DNA of 50,096 nucleotides from a virus. The stretch spans positions 1-50,096 of IMG/VR virus record IMGVR_UViG_3300044615_001819. The stretch is one strand, 5' to 3'. How positions within the stretch are numbered: position 1 is the first letter of the stretch; each line of letters opens with the position of its first letter. Positions 4,740-49,902 of this stretch are shown piece after piece. Made by a program: the position numbers and the translations under genes. The notes under the pieces were generated by a model. It was not told the origin of the DNA and searched no databases. It saw only the letters and a program-made list of their open reading frames with translations.

Positions 4740-4750
4740 CGCCCAAACTA
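4740..4750 (+). promoter_or_regulatory. Phage-type promoter element (CGCCCAAACTA)
   Basis: Copy of the dispersed GCCCAA element, 40 bp upstream of the start at 4790, followed by TATATT and GATAAT. There is no TTGACA. Confidence 0.65.
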
Positions 4751-4789
4751 TATTGGACAAGATAATTATTCCTAGCTAGGATAGAAAAT

Positions 4790-5074
4790 ATGGCTTTAAC
4801 TTTTGCCCCCCCAGTCCCCGCAAGTGGACATTATCAACTAGACCCTTTATATGTTAACTCCGGTGTTGACATCGTTCGTGCTTCTTACGGTTATGATTTG
4901 AATGGTACTGCTGATGCTGACCAATTACTTCAACGTCAAGCCATCATTGCTCTTTTAGAGTTTGCTATCGAAGATACCGCTTTCGTTAATGCTATTCAGG
5001 CAATTGCCGCTACTGCTGGTGTTACTACCCCTGTTTCCTTCGTTTCGGCGTTGGTTACTAAATTAACTGCTTAA
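4790..5074 (+). CDS. Small hypothetical protein, probably late/virion-associated
   Basis: Encodes 94 residues, Ala-rich and neutral, with a Pro-rich start (TFAPPVPASG) and an aliphatic helical C-terminal half. Codons are regular and the gene is preceded by the same promoter element as the capsid, scaffold and tape-measure genes, which suggests late expression and possibly a structural role such as capsid decoration. That role is inference only; no homologue is recognised. The ATG follows a short AT-rich leader without a strong Shine-Dalgarno sequence. Confidence 0.65.
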   Translation: MALTFAPPVPASGHYQLDPLYVNSGVDIVRASYGYDLNGTADADQLLQRQAIIALLEFAIEDTAFVNAIQAIAATAGVTTPVSFVSALVTKLTA

Positions 5075-5121
5075 TCCGTCCTAATCTGGGTCTGATTCAG
5101 CCTTAACCAAGCCCCCCAGTC

Positions 5122-5361
5122 ATGGGTGGGTATTTTTTTGTACCTATTCCCCTTATTGCAAGCATATTATTATTAAGTCCCAAACCCCTTTCCATAATGG
5201 TTTTTTTATTGCTTTTAGCTTCTTTAATGGTCTTTGCCATTACTATTGTAGCCATTGTTGGTTTACTGTTGGCTTACCGTCAACCTCCTGAACCTCAACG
5301 CTTTGATGATTTATCCGATTTCGATTTATTAGACCCTAGGGAATTTGCTGACCGTAATTAA
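5122..5361 (+). CDS. Small membrane protein, holin candidate
   Basis: Encodes 79 residues with two hydrophobic segments (about residues 5-18 and 24-50), the second long enough for a membrane span, followed by a hydrophilic acidic tail (FDDLSDFDLLDPREF). Size and layout fit a phage holin or a membrane accessory protein, but there is no lysin gene alongside, and the start codon lacks a clear ribosome-binding site. It follows the gene at 4790 by 47 nt and is probably cotranscribed with it. Confidence 0.55.
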   Translation: MGGYFFVPIPLIASILLLSPKPLSIMVFLLLLASLMVFAITIVAIVGLLLAYRQPPEPQRFDDLSDFDLLDPREFADRN

Positions 5362-5474
5362 ACCGTCAACAACCACACATTTTTGTTGTGTTCTAATGGG
5401 TGATAAGGGGTCATCCTTTTGGGTGATGGGTGTGGATAACTTTAACCCCCTTGAACAGTACAAATGAACTAATA

Positions 5475-5520
5475 TATAACTGTATAGTTATATAATTATA
5501 TGGTCAAAAAGTGCTTTTTG
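5475..5520. other. AT-rich dyad and hairpin
   Basis: TATAACT-GTAT-AGTTATA (5475-5492), a 7-bp inverted repeat, is followed by CAAAAA-GTGC-TTTTTG (5505-5520). Both lie in the 5362-5652 gap, which otherwise shows no supportable gene. They could be a protein-binding dyad and a weak terminator. Confidence 0.4.
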
Positions 5521-5652
5521 TGTGGCTGAAATCAGCCCCTAACCCTAAACCTTCCTAATTTCGCCTCCAAAATGATGTATAATGATGTATATCAAACTCC
5601 TGGTCGGTATTGGTTTTCTCTGGTCAACCTAAAGGATTGTGAGACAATTATG

Positions 5653-5766
5653 AAAAAGAGTTATGGTGGATTTTACCATTATTTGGGGTTGAGGGGGAAA
5701 AAGAGTTATGGTGAATTTCACCATTATTATCTTAGGTGGAAAAAGAGTTATGGTAATTTTTACCAT
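5653..5766. repeat. Three tandem 42-45-bp units, each with a palindrome
   Basis: Units start at 5653, 5698 and 5740 with AAAAAGAGTTATGGT and contain 17-nt palindromes at 5663-5679, 5708-5724 and 5750-5766. The stems read ATGGTGG/TTACCAT, ATGGTGA/TCACCAT and ATGGTAA/TTACCAT, so changes in one arm are matched in the other (one as G-U). This indicates selection for pairing or dyad symmetry. A 76-codon frame across it repeats KKSYG-x-F-x-HYY only because of the repeats. Confidence 0.7.
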
Positions 5767-5879
5767 TATTATCTTGGGTTGGGGGGGGTGGGGATTTGTT
5801 GAGAAATGTTTCTTCGGTTAAAGCTCTTTGAGTGTCTTATCATACCTAAGATTGGCTCAGGGTCAGCCTTTTAGACTAT

Positions 5880-5890
5880 ACGCCCAATCC
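5880..5890 (+). promoter_or_regulatory. Phage-type promoter element (ACGCCCAATCC)
   Basis: GCCCAA element 35 bp before the start at 5925. It runs into the dyad AATCCA-GAAAT-TGGATT (5885-5901). Confidence 0.6.
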
Positions 5891-5924
5891 AGAAATTGGA
5901 TTCTAAAACTATTTATAGAGGGAT

Positions 5925-6416
5925 ATGAGAAAGAAAGACGTTAGAATGAGCAAAGAGGTCGTGGAACAAACCAAAAAATTGTACCAAATCTATAAACTGG
6001 GAGGGGTGTCTGTTAGGACTTTAGCAGAACGGTTCGATATTCCCTGGACTACTTTAAGAGATAGATTTCGTTCCCAATATGGAAAACAGTATACCAAACA
6101 TAGAGCAGATGAAGGGACTGTCCATGCTGTGATTAAAGAACATTTAAGTCGTCTAGAAGGTATTCACTTACGCAGGGCGGCTGAATGGTATCGGAAGAAT
6201 CAAGCAGAACTCCTAATGCAAGCTCTTGAAGACCAAATGAATCCAGGGCAACGACCTAAAGTATATACCGAACGTCGTATGGATTCTGATACCAAAGCTA
6301 TGTGTCGTTTGAACCATGATATAGGGTCTTCTCCTTATTTATCCGATGGTAGGTATGAACCTAAAATCGATGGTGAAGATTCAGACGAACCTTTACCATC
6401 AGACTTTTGGGATTAA
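5925..6416 (+). CDS. Helix-turn-helix protein, possible small terminase subunit
   Basis: Encodes 163 residues. Residues about 25-60 form a typical HTH (LGGVSVRTLAERFDIPWTTL, then RDRF), similar to resolvase/Psq-type DNA-binding domains; a basic helical middle and an acidic C-terminal tail (DGEDSDEPLPSDFWD) follow. It has the phage-type late promoter element, is followed by a good terminator, and lies next to a large repeat-rich non-coding region. This layout would suit a terminase small subunit binding a packaging site, or a regulator. It is not adjacent to TerL, so the assignment is tentative. Confidence 0.6.
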   Translation: MRKKDVRMSKEVVEQTKKLYQIYKLGGVSVRTLAERFDIPWTTLRDRFRSQYGKQYTKHRADEGTVHAVIKEHLSRLEGIHLRRAAEWYRKNQAELLMQALEDQMNPGQRPKVYTERRMDSDTKAMCRLNHDIGSSPYLSDGRYEPKIDGEDSDEPLPSDFWD

Positions 6417-6473
6417 TTGGGTCTAACGGGGTCTAACGGGGTCTGACCCATCCTCAACCCTACCTGACCCCTC

Positions 6474-6498
6474 CTGACCCCTTTGGAAGGGGTTTTTT
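6474..6498 (+). terminator. Intrinsic terminator
   Basis: CCCCTTTGGAAGGGG followed by TTTTTT, about 60 bp after the stop of the HTH gene. Confidence 0.8.
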
Positions 6499-6591
6499 AT
6501 TGTCAACCCCCAGTCTGCCCCGGTTAAGCTGGGGGGTGGTTCAAATGTACTAGACAAAGATGAACTGGGGGGGGTAGGGGGGGGTTCTCTT

Positions 6592-7066
6592 TTTTCAGGG
6601 CGACCCTTCCTATTCCATCCCCCCCAAGTTTGACAGGGCTTAACTGGGTTTGACCCCTAGACCCCCTTTTACCTTGGGTATGAGTATTTATACCTATCCC
6701 TAAAGACATAGTACGGGGTTTGACCCGACCAGACCCCGTTTAACCACTTCCACCCAACCTGACCCAGTTAGCTAAGGGTGGAAGTGGGGGGGTTCTTGGG
6801 TTTTTTTATGGAGACCTCCTTGATTCCACTTGGTCGGATTGGGTTGAATCTGGTTTGACCCTGCCAGCCCCAGCCTAAGCCAACCAGCCCCAGCCATTCC
6901 TTACTAAGGGGGTAGGGGGGTTAGGTTGGTTTTTCAGGGCGACCCCCCTTATTTCATCCCTCCCAAGTTTAACAGGGCTTAACTGGGTTTGACCCCCCAG
7001 ACCCCCTTTTACCTTGGGTATGAGTATTTATACCTATTTCTAAAGACATAGTACGGGGTTTGACCC
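6592..7066. repeat. 135-bp direct duplication
   Basis: 6592-6726 and 6931-7066 share most of their sequence, including TTGGGTATGAGTATTTATAC and AAAGACATAGTACGGGG. The core GGTATGAGTATTTATACC recurs inverted at 7856-7889 within the same non-coding region. Confidence 0.75.
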
Positions 7067-7290
7067 TGCCAGACCAGTCTTAGCCAACCAGTCCCAACTA
7101 TTCTATACTAGGGGGGTAGGGGGGGTTAGGTTGGTTTTTATAACGGACAGTTATAACTCCGCACCTGGTCTGACCTGTTTTAGCCCGGTTCAACCCCAGT
7201 TTAATACATTTGTACTATATAAATCCACAACTGGGGGGGTTCGAGGCATTTTTCACCCCCCTAGTTTCCCCTTTAGACTCAGATGAAACC

Positions 7291-7583: not shown

Positions 7584-7600
7584 ACGCCCAAGTTATAATA
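7584..7600 (+). promoter_or_regulatory. Phage-type promoter element with TATAAT
   Basis: ACGCCCAAGTTATAATA: the GCCCAA element is fused to a perfect TATAAT, about 75 bp upstream of a 54-codon frame. Confidence 0.55.
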
Positions 7601-7672
7601 GGGAAAGAGTCTTGAGGTCAAATTATACTCTAGGACAAACATTTAACCTAACCATTTTTAGGAAATGTATAA

Positions 7673-8235: not shown

Positions 8236-8973
8236 TTACTCTAAACCAATTTGTTTGATTTTGCCAATTTCACAAGCCTTTTTGACAGCTTCAAATGGTT
8301 CTAAACCATCTTCAACAATAAATCTGGAAGCTAATTCTTCTGCAAACTTTAGCTCTCTTAAGGCTTCAGTAGGAATATGGTCACGGATAGCTCCTGATTC
8401 CTTAAGTTGATAGTGGTCTTTGGCTTGTTTTGATTTAACGCCTAAGACTAGCCCATTGAGATAGTCTGTAGAATTAGGATAGATGAACTTTTTGTAATTA
8501 GAACTTAGTTCTGGGTTATTTTCCAAATAATATTTGAAAGAGTCAGTTAGGGTGCGACGGGCGATTTTGCTTTCAACTCTGGTTTGGAGACGGTCATTGC
8601 GTTCTTCTTCAGTACGTTGAATATTGAAAGCATGGTCTAAGCGACGTTCTAAAGATTCTACCAAACAGGAAAAAGCTACGGCTTGGCATTTTTTGTTGCC
8701 CAGTTGAGCATAAGCACTTACTATAGTACAAAAGGTCTCCATACCCATAAGTCTAGCTAATGCGTTAGTACCCTCTACATGAACCTTCTCAACAGAAAGA
8801 TTGTCCAGTGCCAGTAAGGGTTTGGCGTATTTTTTACCGGTTGAGTCACCTATAAGAATATCTAATGCTTTGCAACCATTTTGGGACATAGCATAGCTAC
8901 CATCAGGTAATTGATACCCTTCAAGTTGGATGCCGCCTAATTTAATTGTGGCTTTTTTGGCTTTGTTGTTCAT
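8236..8973 (-). CDS. Antirepressor/KilA-N-like regulatory protein
   Basis: Encodes 245 residues from ATG 8973; an upstream in-frame TTG at 9018 lies in the promoter -10. The N-terminal part (KLGGIQLEGYQLPDGSYAMS, then a segment around LARLMGMETF) is of the type found in phage antirepressor or Bro/KilA-N-like proteins frequent in cyanobacterial genomes and phages. A second protein of similar layout is encoded at 44606-45445. The C-terminal half is helical and charged. It probably acts as a DNA-binding regulator. It is expressed from a host-type promoter divergently from the scaffold gene, whose start carries the phage-type element. Confidence 0.65.
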   Translation of the reverse strand: MNNKAKKATIKLGGIQLEGYQLPDGSYAMSQNGCKALDILIGDSTGKKYAKPLLALDNLSVEKVHVEGTNALARLMGMETFCTIVSAYAQLGNKKCQAVAFSCLVESLERRLDHAFNIQRTEEERNDRLQTRVESKIARRTLTDSFKYYLENNPELSSNYKKFIYPNSTDYLNGLVLGVKSKQAKDHYQLKESGAIRDHIPTEALRELKFAEELASRFIVEDGLEPFEAVKKACEIGKIKQIGLE

Positions 8974-9017
8974 AGCTAAATTCCAGTCTGTGAAAAAGAA
9001 TAACAGACCATAAATCA

Positions 9018-9046
9018 ATTATAGCAATTTGTCAATGTTCAGACAA
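9018..9046 (-). promoter_or_regulatory. Host-type promoter TTGTCT-N17-TATAAT
   Basis: On the minus strand TTGTCT (complement of 9041-9046), 17 nt, then a perfect TATAAT (complement of 9018-9023). It drives the gene at 8236-8973. Confidence 0.7.
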
Positions 9047-9080: not shown

Positions 9081-9096
9081 CAATAACGCCCAAAGC
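9081..9096 (+). promoter_or_regulatory. Phage-type promoter element
   Basis: CAATAACGCCCAAAGC, with the extended upstream GACAATAAC shared with the copies at 24684, 34392 and 37929. It lies 37 bp before the scaffold start. Confidence 0.7.
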
Positions 9097-9132
9097 AGAA
9101 AATGTAAACCCAAGTGTACAATTAAAAGAGAT

Positions 9133-10107: not shown

Positions 10108-10133
10108 CTTAACACCTACCAATATTTAGACTT

Positions 10134-10144
10134 AGATTGAGCGG
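10134..10144 (-). promoter_or_regulatory. Phage-type promoter element, minus strand
   Basis: CCGCTCAATCT followed by AAGTCTA on the minus strand, matching the version at 24684 (CAAACTAAGTCTA). It is 27 bp before the start at 10107 and back-to-back with the capsid element at 10158. Confidence 0.6.
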
Positions 10145-10157: not shown

Positions 10158-10177
10158 TCGCCCATTTCCTATTATAG
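10158..10177 (+). promoter_or_regulatory. Phage-type promoter element before the capsid gene
   Basis: TCGCCCATTTCCTATTATAG, a slightly divergent element. It leaves a leader of about 85 nt before the capsid ATG, longer than for most other copies. Confidence 0.5.
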
Positions 10178-12224: not shown

Positions 12225-12237
12225 ACGCTCAAACTAA
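12225..12237 (+). promoter_or_regulatory. Phage-type promoter element (ACGCTCAAACTAA)
   Basis: CTCAA variant of the element, identical over 13 nt to the copy at 37483. It lies 26 bp before the start at 12263. Confidence 0.65.
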
Positions 12238-12262
12238 ATAAAACACCTGCCAAGAGATAAAA

Positions 12263-13294: not shown

Positions 13295-14251
13295 CTAAAG
13301 ATGAGAATCTTGGTCAGAATCAAAAAAGTCCTTTGCTTCTAAATCGGAGTTAAATGGCTTAACCCATTGGGTAATTTTTTGGCGGATTTCAGTCCCATTA
13401 AGAATCCTGGTATCTTTTTCCATAGCAGAGTCACCAGACTCACCTGTAAAAAATTTACGGGCAGGAACCCAACCAATAAACCCGCCACACATCACAGATG
13501 CGTCGATGGCTACGGCAGTATGCTCTAAAGCTGACCAATGCTTTGAGCTAACTAGACGTAAAAATAGTTTAACATCCTTTTCCACATCCATATTCCCTTC
13601 GTGGTTTAGGTAAGACACTCTCGCACAACGAGAGGCTGACAGAGCAATGAGTAAAAGAGTATTACCTTTGTACAGTTCTCTTTCCTCATGGGTTACATAG
13701 GGCAGATGCAAACCACCATCTGATAGGATATAAGCAGAACATTTGTGGTAAGCCTCAAGCATTAAGCGGGCTACTTTTCTAATCTCTGGCTGGGCTTTTT
13801 CAGAAGTACGAAGTTCAAAAAAGTTGAACCATTGAGTGCCGGTCAGCACCACATCCACCATTTGAAAAGGCTCAGTAAGTCGGTTCACAATTTCTTTATG
13901 AACCCCAAGCAGGTTCAATAAATTAGCCCAAAACCGTTGGGAGTGCATGGAGCAGAACCATACAAGGTCAGCTAATTTAGCCTTTAGACCCGTCAGGGGC
14001 TTACCAGCTTGCATTCCTGACTTATTCGTACCCCATTGGTCAGGGTGATAGGGATTCTCTACTAATTTTCGGTCTTTTTTCTTAATCGGAACAGCCCGAT
14101 TCGACTCGGTATTAGAGGACAAAATACGGTGTTTATTGAGTTGAGCTAAGACAAATCGGGGAATACGAATTTGAAAAGTGGTAATAGTGTCGCCTGTGAT
14201 GGAATTGACACTTTGTTCGATGACCTTAGCGTGGTATTGGGTAGGTTTCAA
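13295..14251 (-). CDS. thyX: Flavin-dependent thymidylate synthase
   Basis: Encodes 318 residues. It makes dTMP from dUMP with FAD and methylene-tetrahydrofolate, supplying phage DNA synthesis. The ThyX signature R-H-R-x7-S appears as K40-H41-R42-x7-S50 (KHRILSSNTES). The later SALEHTA and GFIGWVPARKFF segments correspond to the substrate-binding S-x-x-E-H and the conserved R-K region of the family. At 318 residues it is longer than most ThyX proteins (about 220-260), with extra sequence in the middle. The start is TTG, overlapping the TGA of the sigma gene as TTGA, with AGGAG 7 nt upstream, so translation is coupled. Confidence 0.85.
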   Translation of the reverse strand: MKPTQYHAKVIEQSVNSITGDTITTFQIRIPRFVLAQLNKHRILSSNTESNRAVPIKKKDRKLVENPYHPDQWGTNKSGMQAGKPLTGLKAKLADLVWFCSMHSQRFWANLLNLLGVHKEIVNRLTEPFQMVDVVLTGTQWFNFFELRTSEKAQPEIRKVARLMLEAYHKCSAYILSDGGLHLPYVTHEERELYKGNTLLLIALSASRCARVSYLNHEGNMDVEKDVKLFLRLVSSKHWSALEHTAVAIDASVMCGGFIGWVPARKFFTGESGDSAMEKDTRILNGTEIRQKITQWVKPFNSDLEAKDFFDSDQDSHL

Positions 14252-14775
14252 GAATTTGCTCCTAATTTCTTAATTTTTCTGACTTCTGACTTATAAGTTC
14301 GCAGGGTAAGACCCAGAGTTTTAGCTATTACCTCTTGGGTAAGACCCATTAGACGTTTGCGGACAATTTGCTTTTGGAGGGGGGTGAGTTTTGACCAGAA
14401 GAGGTTCAGGGTCATTTGGTATTCAGTGGAATCGACTAGGGATGCCATATTGTCTAGGGGAAAATCTCGAAGTTGGCATTCCATGACATAGGTTTTGTGC
14501 CGAATAAGGCGGAACCTTTTGCGAATATCCAACCAGCAATAGCTGGTGAGCGTTCCTTTGTTGGGGTTCCAAGTCTTAAGTTTTTCTAGAACCAGACAAA
14601 GACCTTCCTGAAAGTAATCCTCTCCTTTGACTGACGTATCACGCATAGCACGACGGATAGCGGGGATTTGGGATTTAACCAAATTTAGTTTAGACGTTTC
14701 ACAGGCTTGTTGTTCGATGGTTAGATGACAGTATTCCATGACAGAGGTTTTGAATTTTAGACGGCTTAACCCCAC
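14248..14775 (-). CDS. Phage RNA polymerase sigma factor (sigma-70 family)
   Basis: Encodes 175 residues. Residues about 52-95 (DYFQEGLCLVLEKLKTWNPN, then TSYCWLDIRKRFRL) correspond to sigma region 2, which binds core RNA polymerase and the -10. Residues about 128-171 (LTPLQKQIVRKRLMGLTQEV, then AKTLGLTLRTYKSEVRKIKK) are a region 4 helix-turn-helix for the -35. There is no region 1 or 3, as in compact group IV or phage sigma factors. Likely role: redirecting host polymerase to the phage-type GCCCAA elements. The promoter is a strong host type, divergent from the tape-measure element. Start is GTG 14775 or ATG 14739; neither has a clear ribosome-binding site. Confidence 0.8.
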   Translation of the reverse strand: MGLSRLKFKTSVMEYCHLTIEQQACETSKLNLVKSQIPAIRRAMRDTSVKGEDYFQEGLCLVLEKLKTWNPNKGTLTSYCWLDIRKRFRLIRHKTYVMECQLRDFPLDNMASLVDSTEYQMTLNLFWSKLTPLQKQIVRKRLMGLTQEVIAKTLGLTLRTYKSEVRKIKKLGANS

Positions 14776-14876: not shown

Positions 14877-14905
14877 AGTATAACAGAGAGTAGATTAGGT
14901 GTCAA
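14877..14905 (-). promoter_or_regulatory. Host-type promoter TTGACA-N17-TATACT
   Basis: Minus strand: TTGACA (complement of 14900-14905), 17 nt, TATACT (complement of 14877-14882). Drives the sigma-thyX operon. It leaves a leader of about 100 nt. Confidence 0.8.
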
Positions 14906-14921: not shown

Positions 14922-14935
14922 TCGCCCAAAGCTAA
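14922..14935 (+). promoter_or_regulatory. Phage-type promoter element before the tape measure
   Basis: TCGCCCAAAGCTAA, 30 bp before the start at 14965 and divergent from the host-type sigma-factor promoter. Confidence 0.7.
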
Positions 14936-14964
14936 GTTAGACCCCGCTTGGAGTATAACTGAGG

Positions 14965-22869: not shown

Positions 22870-22882
22870 TCGCTCAAACTAA
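22870..22882 (+). promoter_or_regulatory. Phage-type promoter element (TCGCTCAAACTAA)
   Basis: CTCAA variant, 22 bp before the start at 22905, between the tape measure and the first gpM-like gene. Confidence 0.65.
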
Positions 22883-22904
22883 AAGAAACCTGCCTTAATT
22901 TCGG

Positions 22905-24683: not shown

Positions 24684-24696
24684 ACGCCCAAACTAA
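24684..24696 (+). promoter_or_regulatory. Phage-type promoter element (ACGCCCAAACTAA)
   Basis: Best match to the consensus, preceded by GACAATA, which includes the stop codon of the previous gene. It lies 25 bp before the start at 24721. Confidence 0.75.
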
Positions 24697-24720
24697 GTCT
24701 AGTAAACCCGATAAAAACCT

Positions 24721-25543: not shown

Positions 25544-25556
25544 ACGCCCAGACTAT
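25544..25556 (+). promoter_or_regulatory. Phage-type promoter element (ACGCCCAGACTAT)
   Basis: Slight variant (CCCAGA), 23 bp before the chosen start at 25580; it begins the long tip operon. Confidence 0.65.
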
Positions 25557-25579
25557 AGAAAAGTTGAGTGATAAAACTG

Positions 25580-34391: not shown

Positions 34392-34402
34392 ACGCCCAAT
34401 CT
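34392..34402 (+). promoter_or_regulatory. Phage-type promoter element (ACGCCCAATCT)
   Basis: Preceded by GACAATA overlapping the stop of the fibre gene; 21 bp before the start at 34423, which has a strong AGGAGG. Confidence 0.75.
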
Positions 34403-34422
34403 GATGACAGCAGGAGGTTTTT

Positions 34423-35558: not shown

Positions 35559-35570
35559 ACGCCCAATTTC
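35559..35570 (+). promoter_or_regulatory. Phage-type promoter element (ACGCCCAATTTC)
   Basis: 34 bp before the tail-tube gene, giving it a dedicated promoter despite its place in a gene row. This matches the high copy number needed. Confidence 0.7.
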
Positions 35571-35603
35571 ATACTTGAAATCTCTATATTTGAGGCTACT
35601 TTA

Positions 35604-37480: not shown

Positions 37481-37482
37481 TA

Positions 37483-37495
37483 ACGCTCAAACTAA
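37483..37495 (+). promoter_or_regulatory. Phage-type promoter element (ACGCTCAAACTAA)
   Basis: CTCAA variant preceded by GTCAATA; 29 bp before the 23-codon gene. Confidence 0.7.
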
Positions 37496-37524
37496 AATAG
37501 GACACTTTTATATTTTAACTTGGC

Positions 37525-37596
37525 ATGAAAAAAAGTTCTGGCTGTAAGAAACCCAAAATGCCTAAGCCCAAACCCCTAAAACCTAAAAAGGCTTAG
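37525..37596 (+). CDS. 23-residue basic Lys/Pro peptide
   Basis: Encodes MKKSSGCKKPKMPKPKPLKP followed by KKA, with 10 Lys and 5 Pro in 23 residues and no acidic residue. It is shorter than normal gene-finding limits, but it is bracketed by its own phage-type promoter element (37483) and a perfect terminator (37607-37629), leaving it as the only product of the transcript. There is no clear ribosome-binding site. It could be a DNA-binding or packaging-related peptide, or the transcript may act as an RNA. Confidence 0.5.
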   Translation: MKKSSGCKKPKMPKPKPLKPKKA

Positions 37597-37900: not shown

Positions 37901-37928
37901 TAAAAGTTTTAACCCAAGCTCTAATTTG

Positions 37929-37939
37929 GGCTTGGGCGT
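37929..37939 (-). promoter_or_regulatory. Phage-type promoter element, minus strand
   Basis: ACGCCCAAGCC preceded by GACAATA on the minus strand; 29 bp before the start at 37900. Confidence 0.7.
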
Positions 37940-37983
37940 TATTGTCTAAGTACATATTTGTTTAAAAACGCTCATATTTGTTT

Positions 37984-38601
37984 ATGAACACTGATAACTG
38001 GTTTATGCTCGTTCCTTCTAGAATAGCCTCCTCCAAATTAGGGCTTCACCCCCATACCCTTAGAAAATATTTTGATGACGGTTTGATTAAGGGGATTAAA
38101 AACCCCGCAGGTCAACGATATTACGATGTTGAATCCTATTTAGCCGACCCTCTTGACAAACCCTCAGTTATCTGTTATGCTAGGGTTAGTTCAAGAAAAC
38201 AGTCTGCTGATTTGGCTAGACAGGTCGATTTCTTGAAATCAGTTTACCCCGATTCGGAGATTATTACAGATGTCGGTTCTGGACTTAACTTCAAAAGAAA
38301 AGGTATTCAAACCCTATTGGACAGATTACTCTCAGGAGATTAGTTCACTCTTGCTATCTCCCACCGAGATAGACTCTGCCGATTCGGATTTGAATTGTTC
38401 CAATACCTTTTCCTCAAGAACGGTGGAACAATCGTGGTTCTCAACAATACTCAAACAAGTCCCGAACAAGAACTTACCCCCTACTTACTATCAATCCTCC
38501 ATATTTTCAGTTGCAGAGTCTACGGACTTAGAAAAAACAACAAAAATATCGAGGAAGATAAGACTTTACCCCGACAAAACTCAACAAAATCTACTGAATG
38601 A
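37984..38601 (+). pseudogene. tnpA: IS607-type serine recombinase TnpA, interrupted by TAG
   Basis: The frame begins with a MerR-like HTH (LGLHPHTLRKYFDDGLIKGI) and the serine recombinase start YARVSSRKQS, both typical of IS607 TnpA. It stops at TAG 38341-38343. The same frame continues without a break to 38601 with the missing catalytic-domain end (SHRDRLCRFGFELF, then NGGTIVVLNN). One nonsense codon therefore splits an otherwise intact gene of about 205 codons. Without readthrough, the protein lacks the C-terminal half of the recombinase domain, and transposition would be lost. The end of the gene overlaps tnpB. Confidence 0.85.
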
Positions 38602-39700
38602 GCTAATCTCTCAATATCGGTTTGTTTACAATAAAACTGTAGATTTGCTGATAAACGGTAAAATTGGGGCTAATTGTGATTTAAAGACTAAGAAAGAAAG
38701 AAAAGGTTTGTCAAGCTATGACATCCGTGACACATTCTTTCAATTTTGGTTGGAGAAACACACTTGGTTAACCAATTGCATAAACATAAATACAGTAAAG
38801 GAGGCTATCACCGAAGCTATCAATGCCCAACAAGTAGGGTTTGCCCAATTAAAAGCGGGGTTAGTTGAAAGGTTTGAGTTAAAATTCAAATCTAGAAAAA
38901 AGCCCCGACAAACTATCAACCTAAAAAAGGAAATACTCTCAGCTAAGGGAGTGTTAGCCCCCCGAAACCTAAAACTAGAAACCCCCCTAAAATCAGACAC
39001 AAGGGGTAGTTTTGATGGTCTAACCCTCACAACTACTGGGGGATTGTTCTACCTAATTTATACTGAAGATATTGCTAATAATCCAGAAGTCGAAAACCAA
39101 GACCTAAAGATTGTAGCATTAGACCCTGGTGTTAGAACTTTCCAAACTATTTTCTCGTCTAATGGGGTTTTCGGTAAATTTGGTCAAGAAGCCATTAAAA
39201 GATTGGCTAAACTATGCCATAAAGCAGACAAAATCCAATCTAAAATAGCTAAAACCAAAAACCAAAGTCGGATTAATTATCTAAGAATGTGGCAACAACG
39301 AACCACATTAAAGATAAGAAATCTGAGGAAAGAACTCCACCACAAAATTAGTAGATTTCTAGTAGATAACTTTGATGTAATCCTGCTACCCTGCTTTAAC
39401 ACCGGTGAAATGGTTAAAAAGAAGGACAGAAAAATCAATAAATCTACTACCCGTTCAATGTTAAATTTTGGACATTATGAGTTTAAGGAATTATTAAAGT
39501 TCAAAGCCAATAAATTTGGTAAAAAACTAATAATAGTTTCTGAGGCTTATACCTCCAAAACCGTATCATGGACAGGGGAAATAATAGCTAATCTAGGTGG
39601 GAGGAAAGTAATCAAATCTCAGAGTAACGAAAGTTTAGACAGAGATTTAAATGGAGCCAGAGGAATCCTAATAAAATTCTTAACTGAGCTACCCCAATAG
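38423..39700 (+). CDS. tnpB: IS607-associated TnpB (RNA-guided nuclease family)
   Basis: About 425 residues; GTG 38423 is the chosen start because earlier codons lie inside tnpA, but the start is uncertain. TnpB proteins are omega-RNA-guided DNA nucleases that favour maintenance of the element. Visible: N-terminal RKIRLYPDKTQQNLLNELIS, RuvC-I with D-P-G (KIVALDPGVRTFQTIF), and RuvC-III with D (LDRDLNGARGILIK). Normal family members have a zinc finger of four Cys between the last two; here the segment reads YTSKTVSWTG and has none. This may be a natural zinc-free subfamily or decay. The reading frame is intact. Confidence 0.85.
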   Translation: MEQSWFSTILKQVPNKNLPPTYYQSSIFSVAESTDLEKTTKISRKIRLYPDKTQQNLLNELISQYRFVYNKTVDLLINGKIGANCDLKTKKERKGLSSYDIRDTFFQFWLEKHTWLTNCININTVKEAITEAINAQQVGFAQLKAGLVERFELKFKSRKKPRQTINLKKEILSAKGVLAPRNLKLETPLKSDTRGSFDGLTLTTTGGLFYLIYTEDIANNPEVENQDLKIVALDPGVRTFQTIFSSNGVFGKFGQEAIKRLAKLCHKADKIQSKIAKTKNQSRINYLRMWQQRTTLKIRNLRKELHHKISRFLVDNFDVILLPCFNTGEMVKKKDRKINKSTTRSMLNFGHYEFKELLKFKANKFGKKLIIVSEAYTSKTVSWTGEIIANLGGRKVIKSQSNESLDRDLNGARGILIKFLTELPQ

Positions 39701-39772
39701 GGAGTTACTACCCTTACATATTAACGAATGTTAATGTTTTAGTAACCGTGTTAATGGGCTAGACCCCAGATA

Positions 39773-41912: not shown

Positions 41913-41968
41913 AGGGTGGGCGGGGTTAGGTCTTCTACTTAGGTCATGAGCGTCCCTACCCTCGCCCC

Positions 41969-43729
41969 TTAATAGCCAGAATTATAATTTCCGTAGAGAC
42001 TATCATCTTGGGGGACACTGGGTATTAGGGTATTTGCACCCATACTATCGATGATATTCTCAATATTCCGATGCTCCAAAGTAGCCAAAACGTAACGTAA
42101 AGCATCGCAAAAATGGTCTCTTTGCCCTTCAGCCACTTTCTCGGTAACATTCCCTTCTTTAGACTCTCGGTGATATGCAGTCATGTCCTCAAAAACCCTT
42201 TTACAGGATTTGGCAATAAAAAGTTTATCTTGGTGTAATAAAGTGTTAACCACCCCATTACCTTCTGATACCCTATTATAGCCCTCCATTAACTTGGGAA
42301 CACCCGCTTTTCTCATGGTTAAAATTCTTCCCGGTTGTGACGGGTCAGCATATCCACGGTTGACACCATGCGTTCTGGCTAACTCAATGGCTTTCTCATT
42401 GTGGACTCGTTGTTCAATGGCCGCTTTAGGGTTGGGATTTTCCCAACAATCAATCACAAAATAAGCGGCTCCCCGTCTTCCCACCACTACTAGGGCAGGA
42501 TTCACATCTCCCCAGTCCACTCCGATATATACTTGGTCAAATTTTGTCGGTAAATCGTCATCATCCAGTAAGTGTCTCTTATCTAAATCTGAGAATATCT
42601 GACCATCAAAAGATTCCCAAGATGCTAAAAATTCTTGTCTAAAGATTTTTTCGGGTAATGACTCTTTGGTTCTTTGGATTTCATCAAGGGGAATAAAGGG
42701 ATTATCATAAACTGTTTTTAAAAAACTAGCCCAATTAGGAACTTCACCACCTTGTAGGTAAAGACTATGGAAAAATGTACCTGCCCCCTTGGGCGTACCA
42801 ATAATTAGAGATGTACTATTTTTAGTATCAACTAAAGCAGGGCGAATCACTTCCGTCCATACAATAGGTTTTATATCTTGCATCTCATCTAATCCAGCAA
42901 AATATATCTTCAACCCCCGCATATTGTCGCCGTTATCTTCATTGGCTCCTCTGAGGATGATGTCTGGTTTATTTCCTTTAAAAACGATTCTGCATTCAGA
43001 CTTAAAAATTCTTTTAACTGCTGGGTGTCCATCTAGAATATTTACAAGTGGTTCCCAGTGGATTTGTTTAGCCTGTTTTAAGCTAGGCATAACGAGCAAA
43101 ACGACGGGGGGTGAAGCTTTATCATAGTTGCCGTTGTAATTAATAGCCCTTTCGATTAAAGTAGTTAATAGTAGCCTGGAATTATGGGTAGGGATGTTAC
43201 TTTTACTACATAGGAAAATCCCTCCTTCTACTTGAATACACTTAGTTCGATGTCTTCCAACAGGGATTACATCGGCTATAAAAAAGCTTTCCCACGGATG
43301 CAAAATTTTACGAGGAACAGATAAATTAAGTTTTTTACTTCCCTTTTGAATGTTTTGATGGTAATAGAATATTTCCTCAGTAGTCCATGTGTTAGACTCT
43401 AACTTACGGTTTAGCTCCAAAACCCACTCATGGTTTTTCCCTGCTCTGATAACCTGTCCATTTTCAAAGACAATATCGTAGCAATCATCTTCAAATACCT
43501 CGGTAGCCGCTAAAACTTTTACAGGTAAACCCTGTTCATTATATACAGTGTCCCCAGTGAAAATTTTCTTAATCGGTTTATAACCATTTTTGGTCAAAAT
43601 AGGGGTGTTTTCTTCTAAATTTTTCCCAAATCTCCTCGATGAAACCAAAACCTTGAATCTGGCAGGGTCTCCGAATACTTCTTGTTGTCCCGGGTGTAAA
43701 TATAATTTTAATTTTCCAGGTTTTGCCAT
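41969..43729 (-). CDS. terL: Terminase large subunit with mini-intein
   Basis: Encodes 586 residues as a precursor; after removal of a 147-residue intein the product is 439 residues. Packaging motor: Walker A FGK-S (split by the intein), Walker B IYFAGLDE, and a nuclease domain with IGVDWGD, YADPSQPG and DHFCDALRY acids. The start is ATG 43729, with GAG close upstream; a longer frame uses TTG 43744. A phage-type promoter element is 26 bp upstream. The intein sits in the ATP-binding loop, so unspliced protein should be inactive. Confidence 0.9.
   Translation of the reverse strand: MAKPGKLKLYLHPGQQEVFGDPARFKVLVSSRRFGKNLEENTPILTKNGYKPIKKIFTGDTVYNEQGLPVKVLAATEVFEDDCYDIVFENGQVIRAGKNHEWVLELNRKLESNTWTTEEIFYYHQNIQKGSKKLNLSVPRKILHPWESFFIADVIPVGRHRTKCIQVEGGIFLCSKSNIPTHNSRLLLTTLIERAINYNGNYDKASPPVVLLVMPSLKQAKQIHWEPLVNILDGHPAVKRIFKSECRIVFKGNKPDIILRGANEDNGDNMRGLKIYFAGLDEMQDIKPIVWTEVIRPALVDTKNSTSLIIGTPKGAGTFFHSLYLQGGEVPNWASFLKTVYDNPFIPLDEIQRTKESLPEKIFRQEFLASWESFDGQIFSDLDKRHLLDDDDLPTKFDQVYIGVDWGDVNPALVVVGRRGAAYFVIDCWENPNPKAAIEQRVHNEKAIELARTHGVNRGYADPSQPGRILTMRKAGVPKLMEGYNRVSEGNGVVNTLLHQDKLFIAKSCKRVFEDMTAYHRESKEGNVTEKVAEGQRDHFCDALRYVLATLEHRNIENIIDSMGANTLIPSVPQDDSLYGNYNSGY
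43181..43621 (-). other. Class 3 mini-intein in TerL
   Basis: A 147-residue intein with no homing endonuclease. It starts NLEENTPILT (block A, Asn at position 1 in place of Cys/Ser) and ends IPTHN before Ser+1. Block B GQVIRAGKNHEWVL carries His and Trp66; block F KCIQV has Cys128; block G has Thr145 before His146-Asn147. Trp-Cys-Thr at these places is the class 3 signature, in which the block F Cys is the first nucleophile. The flanking exteins join as SSRRFGK-SRLLL, a normal terminase Walker A. Confidence 0.85.
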
Positions 43730-43754
43730 TATCTCTACGCTCAATCGCTTCTGT

Positions 43755-43768
43755 CTTAGATTGGGCGA
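43755..43768 (-). promoter_or_regulatory. Phage-type promoter element before terL
   Basis: TCGCCCAATCTAAG on the minus strand, 26 bp before the ATG of terL. Confidence 0.7.
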
Positions 43769-45460: not shown

Positions 45461-45485
45461 AAAGAGGTCTGGAGCAAAAGACCTT

Positions 45486-45557
45486 CTGGGTTTAGCTTAT
45501 CGGATAAGCACCGTCCTCATAAGACGGCATAGGTGGGTTCGACTCCCACAACCCAGA
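45486..45557 (+). tRNA. tRNA with anticodon CAU (Met or Ile2)
   Basis: A 72-nt cloverleaf: acceptor CTGGGTT/AACCCAG, discriminator A, D stem GCTT/AAGC, anticodon stem CCGTC/GACGG with loop CTCATAA, T arm GTGGG-TTCGACT-CCCAC. There is no encoded CCA and no GGG/CCC run in the anticodon stem, so it is not an initiator. CAU may decode AUG, or AUA after lysidine modification; sequence alone does not settle it. Confidence 0.85.
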
Positions 45558-45579
45558 TTTGTTCCTTGTTTGGTTTATT

Positions 45580-45615: not shown

Positions 45616-46458
45616 TTAATAGTTACTGAACCATATATCCTTAAATTCTTCTAAAGCCTTTTCTAATTGTTCCCACACTCCTAAGACCGACTCTCCCCCT
45701 TGTTCCCACAGTTCTAAGACAGACTCTCCTCCTTGTTCTGGAATTACTCTAGACTTAAAGGGGGGGGTTTTCCGTCCGTTCCAGTTAACCCCTAGATTTC
45801 CATGTTCTGACTCTAAATGGATTCCTACAGCATTAGCGATTAATTTGCGCTTCTGTCCTCCCCATCGCATAGCAAATAGCATATCGGCTCTAGCGGCATT
45901 TTGATGGACTGTAGGGTAGGAATTTTCACTATTGGGAGCATACCAAGCTTGAAAGAATCCAATGGGGACATAATACCCATCCTTAAAGACACGGGGCATA
46001 ATCGGGAAACGGTCTAATCTGAGCCAGACTTCCTGTTCATAAAATACGTTAGGGTCGCTAACATAATCTGTCCATTTATCAAAACCTACTGCACTAACTC
46101 GGTCAATACCGTAAATACAATCGGTTTCTATAAGCTCTTTTCGGATATGATTCATTGAGCGAGGGGGTAGAACAATATCAGAGTCAAAGTGGACTAGCCA
46201 ACCGCTTTTAGATAAAATATTAGACTTCAAAAATTCATCGATTGCCTGGGATTTACCGAAAGTTTGACCCTCAGCAAAAAAAGCTTCAGTAGCATAACAC
46301 TGAACATGGTGAAAGGAACATACCTCTTGGGTCTTCAGGTCTTGGGGTGTAGTGAGGACTACCAGATTGTCGAACTGCGGACGATTGAAAAGTAAAGACC
46401 AAGACAAAAAATCCGAATAACCAACACAAGTGGTAAAAGCTTCAACGGGAGAGTACAT
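45616..46458 (-). CDS. Glycosyltransferase (GT-A type), late
   Basis: Encodes 280 residues. The nucleotide-sugar metal motif is D92-S93-D94 in LVHFDSDIVLP; the N-terminal beta-alpha start (LVVLTTPQDLKTQEVCSFHH) and GKSQAIDEFL are as in GT-A enzymes. It could modify virion proteins or host surface sugars. The C-terminus contains a tandem duplication, EQGGESVLELW then EQGGESVLGVW, from a DNA repeat near 45680-45740. The promoter is a phage-type element (46488), so it is expressed late with virion genes. It has a Gly/Trp-rich segment but no membrane span. Confidence 0.75.
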   Translation of the reverse strand: MYSPVEAFTTCVGYSDFLSWSLLFNRPQFDNLVVLTTPQDLKTQEVCSFHHVQCYATEAFFAEGQTFGKSQAIDEFLKSNILSKSGWLVHFDSDIVLPPRSMNHIRKELIETDCIYGIDRVSAVGFDKWTDYVSDPNVFYEQEVWLRLDRFPIMPRVFKDGYYVPIGFFQAWYAPNSENSYPTVHQNAARADMLFAMRWGGQKRKLIANAVGIHLESEHGNLGVNWNGRKTPPFKSRVIPEQGGESVLELWEQGGESVLGVWEQLEKALEEFKDIWFSNY

Positions 46459-46487
46459 ATTTTCTCAGTGGGCAGGGGGATTCAAGA

Positions 46488-46500
46488 ATATTTTGGGCGC
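46488..46500 (-). promoter_or_regulatory. Phage-type promoter element, minus strand
   Basis: GCGCCCAAAATAT on the minus strand, 30 bp before the glycosyltransferase start, immediately after a terminator hairpin. Confidence 0.6.
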
Positions 46501-46514
46501 ATACTTTTAGGCAC

Positions 46515-46889: not shown

Positions 46890-46916
46890 GGCTACATGGG
46901 TTAAATGTACTTTCTT

Positions 46917-46952: not shown

Positions 46953-46971
46953 AATGTTTTATTTTGTATCG

Positions 46972-47703
46972 TTAACCGTTTATAGTGCTGAAAAATCCTT
47001 CTATTGCCTCTCTCACTTCTGGGTGATTTGCCGGATAAACTGCTATCTCTCGCATTGCCCCGTTGACTAACCGTTTCTCTTGTTGACTTAGTTGACGACA
47101 ACTCTTTTTAACGTATTTTCCAAGTTGAGACCGATTATCATGGGAAGGGTTAAATCCCATTTCTAGTGCAATCTCAACAACTCCTTGCAAGGAATCCCCA
47201 GTTAAAGTAGCCTGACTTGGCATTAAATCGGAAATAGCATGGTCAATTAGAAATTGGGCTAATCGGGGGTTATTTCGAGAAATCAATCCCTCAATTTCCA
47301 CAACTGCCTTAGCTGTTTCAACAGCAACCTGACGAGATGTTAATTTAGGCTGTTCTACATGGTGCAGACTAACTGTGCCAGTTGTGACTAGCGTTTTGAT
47401 TTGCTGTAGCATCCAGATTTTGAACTTCACCGAACACCAACCAGCAAACTCTAAAGCGACTTCTTCAATTGCCCATGTTCCAGTAGTTGCAGGTAAGCCC
47501 CCAACGTTAGACACCATTACGGGAATCCCCGCAATGCCCTCAAACTCAGTCAGGAACTCGGTTGTAGCATTTAGTCGATTCCAATCATTAATCCGTTTCC
47601 CACTAGCCTTAGCCATATCGGTTAGACAAACCCAGACCCGACCTTCACGATTTTCAAAGCGAATGTTGTTGGAGTTGAAATCAAAAACAGATAAATTAGA
47701 CAT
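46972..47703 (-). CDS. KilA-N domain regulator
   Basis: Encodes 243 residues. Residues about 20-105 (VWVCLTDMAKASGKRINDWN, then WAIEEVALEFAGWCSVKFKI, W-M) are a KilA-N DNA-binding domain. The C-terminal half is helical, with the segments LISRNNPRLAQFLIDHAISD and LGKYVKKSCRQLSQQEKRLV. Found in phages and large DNA viruses as transcription regulators. The promoter is the hybrid at 47733-47768. Confidence 0.8.
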   Translation of the reverse strand: MSNLSVFDFNSNNIRFENREGRVWVCLTDMAKASGKRINDWNRLNATTEFLTEFEGIAGIPVMVSNVGGLPATTGTWAIEEVALEFAGWCSVKFKIWMLQQIKTLVTTGTVSLHHVEQPKLTSRQVAVETAKAVVEIEGLISRNNPRLAQFLIDHAISDLMPSQATLTGDSLQGVVEIALEMGFNPSHDNRSQLGKYVKKSCRQLSQQEKRLVNGAMREIAVYPANHPEVREAIEGFFSTING

Positions 47704-47732
47704 AGTTTAGTCCAGAAATAGGTATCCCGTTT

Positions 47733-47768
47733 ATTATAGCAACAAAAAAACCACCCGTCAAGGTGGTT
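47733..47768 (-). promoter_or_regulatory. Terminator-promoter hybrid, copy 2
   Basis: As copy 1: stem GGTGGTT/AACCACC (47762-47768 and 47749-47755), loop TTGACG (complement of 47756-47761), TATAAT (complement of 47733-47738) with a 17-nt spacer that contains the T-run. Confidence 0.75.
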
Positions 47769-47796
47769 TAATATTTAATTCAGAAGTAACTTTAGA

Positions 47797-48432
47797 TTAA
47801 CCTAGTGCTTCTAAAATTTTGGCCAGAATTGGATGGCGAACCGACGTACCCTTCGGAAAGAAAGTTACCCCAACACCTTCCACATCATTCAACCGGTTTG
47901 CGGCAATTGGTAAATAGGCTTCAGTTTTCAAACTACATTGGGTGGGGTCTCCGATAATACAGAGCTTTGAACCGTGTGCAATTCTAGTTACCACGGCTTT
48001 AAACAGACGTTCAGTAGCGTCCTCAGCCTCATCAAAAATAATAAAGGTATTAGACAAACTAGCTCCTTTAATATTACCGATGTGGCTAATTTCTATAGTA
48101 GAACGGAGCTTCTGGAAATCTTTAGGGTGGGCAATTTCAGAAAGATTAGTCCATAGGGGAGTTCCCAATGAATCTACTTTTTCCCCATAATCACCTGGCA
48201 TAGCCCCAATATCAACCTCATCCCTGTCTCTTACAAACGGTCTTACATATAAAACACTATTAATGGGGTCATCTGGATTATTAAGAGCTAAAAGGGCGGA
48301 ATACATCGCAATCAGAGTCTTACCAGTACCAGCCTCACCAACACCAATAGAAATGGTATTTGTCCGTAAAGACCGTAGAAACTGTTCTTGATAGCGGTTC
48401 TTGGGTTTCAATCCGTGGGCAATATTGACCAT
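47797..48432 (-). CDS. phoH: PhoH-like ATPase
   Basis: Encodes 211 residues. Walker A is GEAGTGKT (residues 32-39) and Walker B FIIFDEAED (D134, E135), with R-P-F-V-R and G-D-P-T-Q downstream, as in the PhoH/RecD-like helicase core. PhoH is frequent in cyanophages; proposed roles include RNA or phosphate-stress metabolism, but its function in infection is unresolved. It ends the operon 49902-47797. Confidence 0.9.
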   Translation of the reverse strand: MVNIAHGLKPKNRYQEQFLRSLRTNTISIGVGEAGTGKTLIAMYSALLALNNPDDPINSVLYVRPFVRDRDEVDIGAMPGDYGEKVDSLGTPLWTNLSEIAHPKDFQKLRSTIEISHIGNIKGASLSNTFIIFDEAEDATERLFKAVVTRIAHGSKLCIIGDPTQCSLKTEAYLPIAANRLNDVEGVGVTFFPKGTSVRHPILAKILEALG

Positions 48433-48455
48433 GTTGTTTTTATGGTTGTTAGTGA

Positions 48456-49028
48456 CTAAATGTTTTCAACGGAATCGGGGGCTAATTCAGCACTAGCCTC
48501 AATCTGATTTGGGGCGGGTTCTAGGAATTGAGGGTAAACAGCGACATCAACATAGTCTTCTTCACTGACTACTTCAGTAGCACCCTCTACCATAAACATG
48601 ATGGCAGTAAGTTGTTTATGTGCTTCCAAAGAGGCAGAAAGATTTTTAGAAACTAATTCGATAACATCACCCCGACCAGTAACTTTTTGGTCACTGTAGC
48701 CAGACTTACCCATATCCATTACCTCGGCCAAGAACTGAACCCGGGAATATAAAGTAGCATACTTTAACTCCTTTAATTCCATGCCCATTTTGACGGCTTC
48801 AGCCCCGCCCTTCCGGTATTTAGCAACCAAATTAGGTTCAGCCTCAATAACTCTGACTACTAAATCCTCATTAATATCCAAAGGAGTTATCTTCCGATTT
48901 ACCCTTCGACAGATTTCCGAGAATGAGTATTCAGGGTAGCAACCCTTATAGAAACAAATAGCCTCCTTTACTAAATCTGGTAGACTTCCCTCCGTATTTA
49001 CCACAATATCTTTTTTAGACCTGGACAT
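48456..49028 (-). CDS. Hypothetical protein with HTH-like N-terminus
   Basis: Encodes 190 residues. The N-terminal 60 residues (LVKEAICFYKGCYPEYSFSE, then I-C-R-R-V-N-R-K-I) look like an HTH. The helical middle (RVQFLAEVMDMGKSGYSDQK) and acidic C-terminus resemble DUF2280-type or small-terminase-like proteins, but this is weak. It overlaps the previous gene (TAATG). Candidate small terminase subunit, in competition with 5925-6416. Confidence 0.5.
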   Translation of the reverse strand: MSRSKKDIVVNTEGSLPDLVKEAICFYKGCYPEYSFSEICRRVNRKITPLDINEDLVVRVIEAEPNLVAKYRKGGAEAVKMGMELKELKYATLYSRVQFLAEVMDMGKSGYSDQKVTGRGDVIELVSKNLSASLEAHKQLTAIMFMVEGATEVVSEEDYVDVAVYPQFLEPAPNQIEASAELAPDSVENI

Positions 49029-49330
49029 TAAATAGCCCCCATTAAATCAGAAGTCCAAGATTTACCCGTAAATTTCTTGGGGACTTTGGTTTTAATCCGG
49101 GGGAAACCTGCTCTACCAGCAATCATATTGCGGAGATTTTCTTTTTCCTCTGGTTCACCAAATCCAGAACCTAACGCAACAGCATCGGTCATGTCAAGAA
49201 TGTCCCTAGCCCGATGTTTATAATGACCAGCTAAAGCATTCATGACTTCCCAATGTGGCATAGATAGTAATTGTTTACGGCTAATTCCCATTTTGTAAAA
49301 TACGGGTAAAACATCGATTAGAGTTTCCAC
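49028..49330 (-). CDS. Hypothetical protein
   Basis: Encodes 100 residues from a GTG at 49330. Helical N-terminal half (VLPVFYKMGISRKQLLSMPH) and a basic C-terminal half (RIKTKVPKKFTGKSWTS). It lies 8 nt after the preceding stop and overlaps the following start, so it is in a tight operon with its neighbours. No domain was recognised. Confidence 0.55.
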   Translation of the reverse strand: METLIDVLPVFYKMGISRKQLLSMPHWEVMNALAGHYKHRARDILDMTDAVALGSGFGEPEEKENLRNMIAGRAGFPRIKTKVPKKFTGKSWTSDLMGAI

Positions 49331-49338
49331 ATAGAGAT

Positions 49339-49902
49339 TTACTCTTGCTCGATTTTGGAATCCAAAGGGACATCTAATTCCTCCTGTTGAACGGGGGTAA
49401 CACCATCCTGTTCTGGTGTTTGCCCAATTTCATCCAGTAGTGTTTGTAAATGGTTATAAATACCCATGATGGTTTTAGAGCGTAATCTTTTAAAGGTTCC
49501 TACTGGTTGGCCAAGCAGTGCCTCAATCATTTTTCGAGCGGGGGCTAACATCTGGGCTTCCAATTTAGCTTTCCGTACAGCATCTTTGGCATCTTTGGTC
49601 TGTACTAGCACCACAGTACCATTTTCATCTTCTTGTCCAAAAATATTAATGTAGGCATCCATAGCCTCGCTCCGTCCAGCAAAATAGGCAATATACTGTT
49701 CTTCTAAAAGATTCTCTGGGCTAGTTACCTGATAGGTCTTACCATTTACAGTTACTTCACCCAAAGGCTCAGTGTCATCTAAGAACTGGGGGATAATCTT
49801 TTCGTCAATAAGGGTCATAAACTTTTTTATTTGTGTGACTACACTCTCAAATTGGGCGTATTTGTCTGGATAGACTGCGAGATTATGAAGATTAAGTTTC
49901 AT
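49339..49902 (-). CDS. Hypothetical protein
   Basis: Encodes 187 residues: a helical N-terminal half, the strand pair GEVTVNGKTYQVTS, a helical section (DAKDAVRKAKLEAQMLAPAR) and an acidic, Gln/Pro-rich tail. A copy of the phage-type element lies inside its first codons (49847-49859), 29 bp before an in-frame ATG at 49818. Either that is chance or the true start is 49818 (159 residues). Neither start has a strong ribosome-binding site. Confidence 0.55.
   Translation of the reverse strand: MKLNLHNLAVYPDKYAQFESVVTQIKKFMTLIDEKIIPQFLDDTEPLGEVTVNGKTYQVTSPENLLEEQYIAYFAGRSEAMDAYINIFGQEDENGTVVLVQTKDAKDAVRKAKLEAQMLAPARKMIEALLGQPVGTFKRLRSKTIMGIYNHLQTLLDEIGQTPEQDGVTPVQQEELDVPLDSKIEQE
49847..49859 (-). 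promoter_or_regulatory. Phage-type element inside a coding sequence
   Basis: ACGCCCAATTTGA with GACAAAT upstream, on the minus strand, within the first 20 codons of the gene at 49339-49902. Spacing to ATG 49818 is 29 bp, like the intergenic copies. Confidence 0.35.

Follow-up and report, generated by a model that had tools for sequence, protein, structure and literature searches.

The T4 late promoter motif is TATAAATA. The systems closest to the one treated here, a short element with the core CGCYCAA that stands before late genes in a stretch of viral DNA (IMG/VR record IMGVR_UViG_3300044615_001819, positions 1 to 50,096; the whole stretch is called the window), are the late promoters of T4, the phage promoters of phiEco32 and 7-11, and the expression programs of the Microcystis phages Ma-LMM01 and Mic1. 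T4 late transcription, which uses gp55, gp33 and the gp45 clamp, is similar in that its promoter lacks a -35 element and has been compared to an extended -10 promoter (PMC2988020); in our case this is read from conservation, not from transcription. The T4 late polymerase has no sigma4-equivalent domain (PMC2988020), whereas both sequence and fold indicate one in the sigma factor encoded in the window. phiEco32 and 7-11 share with the window a phage sigma, host promoters ahead of early genes and, ahead of structural genes, a compact promoter made of a single block, but their motif is TG-TGATGT-TATA (PMC4331800), and the core here is CGCYCAA. An anti-sigma is described for them (PMC4331800). Ma-LMM01 infects the host genus of Mic1 and likewise has three phases, but it has no phage-specific motif (PMC5780444). 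The system formed by the box and its candidate sigma works like T4 gp55 and phiEco32/7-11 and belongs to neither: the strategy, a compact late promoter read by a phage sigma, is known, and the specificity is new. Our favoured explanation, with a probability of about 0.72, is that the box forms the core of a late promoter that is compact, resembles an extended -10 promoter and has no -35 element, and that the phage sigma recognises it while bound to the host core polymerase. The computations show that the element exists, that it is conserved and associated with late genes, and that the DNA upstream of it is unconstrained.

The window is a linear contig of 50,096 bases with a GC content of 0.41. 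It is akin to Microcystis phage Mic1 (MN013189), a 92.6-kb cyanosiphophage and the one cultured member of the family, which consists of viruses of freshwater cyanobacteria. The terminases are 68.5% identical, the late regions are colinear, the sigma orthologue in both adjoins thyX and diverges from the tape measure gene, and the box is common to 12 annotated orthologues in both lineages (gp1, 9, 16, 20, 23, 33, 35, 38, 40, 42, 47 and 94). Judged from kinship alone, the window's host would be a cyanobacterium; megablast of window bases 8000–32000 against a phage collection gave no match. Two lineages were found in IMG/VR, A (the window and L009–L013) and B (Mic1-like, G006–G009 and further contigs), and scans for more distant lineages returned, by identity, just these two. 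A scan with a 16-base form of the box yielded 64 stretches: 18 carry Mic1-like genes, and none were seen in the other 46, which we took as chance. The Mic1 papers name gp36 and the expression phases; in the parts consulted they describe no late motif, and searches of an open-access library returned no description of it either, the bare-word search for CGCCCAA being too unspecific to exclude much.

An earlier note on the window had proposed a phage-specific late promoter element and listed 17 places for it. All 17 carry CGC[C/T]CA, at coordinates right within 1–2 bases, and 15 of them lie 30–50 nucleotides (nt) before a start codon, in keeping with the claim that most sit shortly upstream of genes; the exceptions are 7585 (88 nt) and 10159 (106 nt). 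Two late-gene copies can be added: 41952(-) lies upstream of the portal gene and 49858(-) upstream of the gp94 homologue. Of the 22 window copies of the firm core, CGCYCAA, 17 fall between genes and 5 within them (binomial p 7e-11), on a map of 51 open reading frames (ORFs) that leaves 85.5% of the window coding and 14.5% intergenic; five of its gene starts were set by homology or at an internal start codon, and it omits two weak ORFs. The note had named an equal frequency in coding DNA as an outcome that would refute the element, and the counts do not show it. As a control, the reversed word [AT]ACYCGC has 11 copies, none of them intergenic. The exact 12-mer WCGCYCAAWCTA has 5 matches against 0.05 expected, and 41 against 20 ± 4.5 when up to two mismatches are allowed. 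This excess and the intergenic bias of the core rule out chance as the source of the box.

The fuller form given in the note, GACAATAA, is real, with 4 copies (repeat family D20), but it is a minority form in the window and was not seen at any Mic1 box site. Between close relatives it is retained at 34393 and altered at 24685, 9087 and the 37484 site. Since it is a minority form and inconsistently retained, the 20-base form is ruled out as the signal. The element is (A/T)CGCYCAAWNY-N7-R, counted from the first C as position 1, with a seven-base core and a weaker 3' part; the proposal of a promoter-like element before late genes stands, its definition is corrected accordingly, and the upstream extension is unneeded.

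We scanned for host-type promoters (TTGACA/TATAAT, 16–18 bp apart). Seven of 17 non-element genes score 10–12/12, KilA-N and mazG among them, so that the note's assignment of such promoters to genes without the element applies to part of them, not to all. At 11 late genes the best scores are 7–10/12, the 10 sitting 80 nt upstream, and host -35/-10 promoters for the late genes are ruled out, good ones being missing at 11/11 late genes scanned. The same absence argues against reading the box as an operator or as a signal in the RNA (for processing, termination or a leader hairpin), as do its narrow distance to the start codon and a constraint that acts at the sequence level with a sharp 5' edge (see below). 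A few copies do lie in inverted repeats or terminator-like hairpins when judged by eye (43767, 10159, Mic1 gp2 and gp9, and gp9 of G002), but at most listed copies no such hairpin was seen (by eye, not scanned), and we regard an operator or RNA signal as improbable.

Mic1 allows the element to be set against expression phases, which we took from the main text of PMC11237433: its early genes number 23 (gp49–gp73 without gp61 and gp67), and late genes rise after 4 h. CGCYCA has 16 intergenic and 21 coding copies in Mic1, the terminase copy near the record edge being outside this count. Ten of the intergenic copies lie 33–53 nt before gp2, gp9, gp16, gp23, gp33, gp35, gp38, gp42, gp94 and gp97, four 81–104 nt before gp47, gp7, gp84 and gp40, and the remaining two 240 nt before gp86 and 1958 nt before gp48. 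The gp20 copy falls within the end of gp21, 50 nt before gp20, and the terminase copy is 49 nt before gp1. The spelling is CGCTCAA in 10/16 Mic1 sites and CGCCCAA in 21/27 sites of the window lineage. The zone 20–130 nt upstream of Mic1 genes was scored with a matrix trained on the note's 17 window sites. Five of the 12 named late genes reach 10.5–18.4, and none of the 41 early or named middle genes exceeds 4.6 (Fisher 2.8e-4); 45 of the 98 genes are outside this comparison (35 unnamed ones, gp61, gp67 and 8 whose annotation led us to group them as structural). When the eight structural genes, assumed late, are added, 9/20 are matrix-positive (1e-5). De novo expectation maximization on 37 Mic1 upstream regions taken as late or structural gives aacGCTcAAaaT, with a log-likelihood of 65.5 against 38–45 in 5 shuffles. 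From the 23 early genes the procedure returns GACATAATGG, a repeat family that PMC7156551 reports in Mic1, and from the 18 named middle genes no clear motif. An exception in the early block is gp67, with a box 157 nt before the annotated start and 40 nt before a 22-residue peptide.

Elbi and Lbo402 are cyanophages with a related terminase, in neither of which tblastn found a sigma homologue. CGCYCA[AT] stands 20–60 nt before 1/73 genes of Elbi (first 50 kb) and 0/69 of Lbo402, against 13/98 in Mic1 (reversed word: 1, 0 and 2). A host alternative sigma might be thought to read the box, given that cyanobacteria have group 1, 2 and 3 sigmas (PMC5780444), but these two other cyanophages lack the element and the phage encodes a sigma of its own, expressed in the middle phase; we consider a host reader highly improbable.

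Constraint was measured on orthologous sites aligned inside each lineage; a site was included if the reference carried the box, whatever the relatives had there. Because two of the five lineage A relatives hardly differ from the window, the cell counts overstate the number of independent comparisons; Mic1 site 35455 has no aligned relative. Box positions 1–6 carry substitutions in 3/252 cells in lineage B and 0/372 in lineage A. The 21 bases upstream are the fastest-changing stretch (249/860 in B, 103/1286 in A), and positions 20–40 carry 118/882 and 27/1302, respectively. In lineage B positions 11–19 are mildly constrained (31/378) and positions 8–10 unconstrained (25/126). The sharp 5' edge of constraint at the box implies that no -35 element is retained. 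Rearrangements near the capsid element test this naturally. A transposase-bearing insertion comes to within ~15 bp of the box on its upstream side in G004 and lies upstream in the opposite orientation in G005, and the flank in G003 is different again; the box is retained.

Among the listed sites of both lineages position 10 is a pyrimidine in 41/43 and position 18 a purine in 39/43. We lean toward a register in which CGCY would take the extended -10 place, CAAWNY (positions 5–10; A6 = -11, Y10 = -7) would be the -10 hexamer, and transcription would start near the purine at 18. MotA aids the host holoenzyme at T4 middle promoters, and a phage activator (candidates are the regulator at 8236–9018, the KilA-N protein and the helix-turn-helix protein at 5925–6416) could similarly bind the box and aid the host holoenzyme at a -10 just downstream, TANNNT at positions 10–16. 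TANNNT-like hexamers do follow the box at narrow spacing, several sites reading TATAAT, TAAAAT or TATATT, and other putative regulators are encoded. However, the box ends 2–3 bp before that -10, which would leave little room for a protein beside sigma, and the -7 T of the hexamer is poorly retained in the window lineage (T15 13/27, T16 11/27). At 34393 a start 7 nt downstream of the hexamer, at position 22, would disrupt the AGGAGG ribosome site, and an activator leaves the phage sigma without a target. An activator bound at the box is, in our judgment, unlikely.

The candidate reader is the orthologue of Mic1 gp36, encoded at 14248..14739 on the minus strand (ATG 14739 is favoured by the homologues' start; GTG 14775 is possible). 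gp36 is named 'RNA polymerase sigma-70 factor' and placed in the middle cluster M2, high at 4–6 h (PMC11237433), which supports the earlier claim of a compact sigma-like protein and adds middle-phase expression of its orthologue. The window protein, of 163–175 residues, is 41% identical to Mic1 gp36, the comparisons between the two sigmas as a whole giving about 41–46%; at this low identity the two phages still carry the box before 12 of the same genes. It has a PHROG sigma match over residues 47–170 (3.8e-6) and Pfam matches to sigma70_r4_2 (1.3e-5; 25.2 against a cut-off of 25.7 bits) and sigma70_r2 (14.3 bits, 19.4 in Mic1, against a cut-off of 24). An AlphaFold model from 7 sequences (pLDDT 72.7, pTM 0.44) aligns with the SigE N-terminal domain over residues 23–98 (Z 7.8, root-mean-square deviation 2.5, 76 aligned) and with sigma4 domains over residues 115–175 (Z about 8, deviation 2.2–2.7, about 60 aligned), Z values of a size that can arise for helical bundles. 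Whole-chain Foldseek of the model gave no match at E 0.001, and scans of genome contigs for the sigma found none. Sequence and model point to an architecture like that of extracytoplasmic function (ECF) sigmas, with sigma2 and sigma4 and no sigma3; a conserved -35 motif, as ECF promoters have, is not found, the region upstream of the box being unconstrained. A phage single-subunit RNA polymerase as the late reader is ruled out, PF00940 being found in none of the 4 family records (the window, G002, G007 and Mic1, of which just Mic1 is complete; T7 control 1e-109).

A host-type promoter, TTGACA-N17-TATACT, points toward the sigma gene and thyX at 14877..14905 (-), back-to-back with the tape-measure element at 14923. 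The note had placed a host-type promoter there, and it does exist, though 102–138 nt before the sigma start codon: a scan of the 140 nt before the ATG reaches just 8/12, the pair sitting slightly farther out. Mic1 has TATAAT in the matching interval, and no box was seen before the sigma gene in the window or in Mic1. thyX (13295..14251, minus strand; PHROG thymidylate synthase 5e-63) overlaps the sigma gene by 4 bases, and the two are probably co-transcribed. A host-type promoter and no box before the sigma gene make the order host sigma, phage sigma, late genes plausible. In the explanation we favour, the two-domain phage sigma would be made in the middle phase from the host-type promoter, would take over the host core RNA polymerase from the host sigma and would steer it to the box sites, so that the box would mark transcription starts and the head, tail, packaging and lysis operons would be switched on together late.

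Region 2 is strongly conserved between the lineages (GEDY-QEG...KLKTWNP-KG-LT--CWLD-R), region 4 less so. With the box identical and sigma4 poorly conserved, region 2 would do most of the reading if the sigma reads the box. We tentatively extend this to a family-wide mode in which the sigma may retain its -35-binding domain but use promoters without a -35 element, reading the GC-rich extended -10 block (CGCY) fused to the CAAWNY hexamer via region 2 alone. If true, this would be an unusual promoter grammar for a two-domain sigma.

Several observations weigh against the box being a late promoter read by this sigma. The second-best Mic1 matrix site, 36630(-), is inside gp34, and two other high-scoring sites are the distant intergenic ones: 54438(-), in a long region with no annotated gene, the next being 1958 nt away, and 83438(-), before gp86, a named middle gene. 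In the window, 43738(+), one of the 17 intergenic copies, lies antisense to the terminase element and points from 163 nt away at mazG, a published middle gene. Seven of the 12 named late genes have no element of their own, some of them probably being operon-internal. The gp2 and gp9 copies of Mic1 overlap the terminator-like hairpins noted above. TANNNT or CANNNT starts at position 10 or 11 in 10/16 intergenic and 2/21 coding Mic1 sites, and T16 is conserved in Mic1 (14/16). As for the sigma, its Pfam matches sit under the curated cut-offs, the fold model is moderate, LuxR-type helix-turn-helix domains and sigma4 match the C-terminal part equally well, and the sigma4 helix-turn-helix is poorly conserved between lineages although the box is identical. 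With gp36 high at 4–6 h and late transcripts rising after 4 h, the timing allows the proposed order and does not prove it.

The late promoter reading would give a freshwater cyanophage family a promoter code for its late genes, together with the protein that probably reads it. It would predict transcription starts almost to the base, suggest which operons are switched on late and mark an overlooked gene for a small basic peptide; the sigma and its promoter are a possible orthogonal pair for cyanobacteria. The cultured relative Mic1 makes the late switch easy to test.

The elements of the window are as follows, with distances to the start codon. On the plus strand, 4740..4757 precedes the cement protein homologue (gp47) by 50 nt (81 nt in Mic1), 5881..5898 the gp48 homologue by 44 nt (none seen before Mic1 gp48) and 7585..7602 a 54-residue ORF by 88 nt, with TATAAT after the box. 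The scaffold gene (gp42) has 9087..9104 at 46 nt, as in Mic1, the major capsid gene (gp40) 10159..10176 at 106 nt (Mic1 104 nt) and the gp38 homologue 12226..12243 at 37 nt, again as in Mic1. Farther on, 14923..14940 lies 42 nt before the tape measure gene (gp35; Mic1 53 nt, CGCCCAC), 22871..22888 lies 34 nt before the gp34 homologue (none seen before Mic1 gp34), 24685..24702 lies 36 nt before the gp33 homologue (Mic1 48 nt), and 25545..25562, spelled CGCCCAG, lies 35 nt before the conserved ATG 25580 of the gp31 homologue (none seen before Mic1 gp31). The gp23 homologue follows 34393..34410 by 30 nt (Mic1 37 nt) and the tail tube gene (gp20) follows 35560..35577 by 44 nt (Mic1 50 nt, CGCTCAT). 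The last plus-strand element, 37484..37501, stands 41 nt before an unannotated basic peptide of 23 residues (Mic1 40 nt). This lysine- and proline-rich peptide, 22–23 residues long, lies directly behind a late element in both lineages: MKKSSGCKKPKMPKPKPLKPKKA and MKKKSCGKKIKKVTPKPVKPNK (window 37525–37596; Mic1 65582, in L024). A further box copy, 72 nt before gp25 and inside the gp26 coding region in both lineages (window 31644; Mic1 28524), could be an internal promoter or a protein constraint.

On the minus strand, 10126..10143 precedes a short ORF between the scaffold and capsid genes, and 37921..37938 the gp3 homologue by 38 nt. The latter is beside a transposase-bearing insertion (PHROG transposase; 37932–39748), which in two relatives (L012 and L013) lies upstream of the capsid-gene element in opposite orientations; a contig scan with the transposase, in search of host DNA, found 10 loci and no Microcystis. 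A weak element (CGCTCAT) at 41935..41952 lies 40 nt before the portal gene (gp2), and 43750..43767 lies 35–38 nt before the terminase large subunit gene (gp1; Mic1 49 nt, CGCCCAT). The terminase (41969–43744) has 591 residues here against 952 in Mic1, for which two inteins are reported (PMC7156551), and the window copy appears intein-free. The element at 46482..46499 stands 41 nt before a 280-residue ORF without assigned function (45616–46458); the note's glycosyltransferase label for it finds no PHROGs or Pfam match at E 0.01. Finally, 49841..49858 precedes the gp94 homologue and a gene run up to phoH by 40 nt (Mic1 45 nt).

Apart from the element, the genomes strongly avoid some palindromes. 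In G002 (90.6 kb) GATC occurs 0 times against about 255 expected, CGCG 1 against 54 and GAATTC 0 against 23; GATC occurs 0 times against 144 in the window and 11 against 235 in Mic1, where GGCC occurs 4 against 96. Our guess would be restriction avoidance. Adjacent small ORFs are tandemly duplicated at 508–791 and 929–1212 (82% identical DNA), and a short tandem run of AGGGTTAGATT-like units lies between small ORFs at 2807–2864. A hairpin-like repeat (ACCACC...GGTGGT) has three copies at 46502, 46915 and 47731; two include TTGACG-N17-TATAAT immediately upstream of a gene, combining terminator and promoter. A tRNA-Met (CAT) gene lies at 45485–45558.

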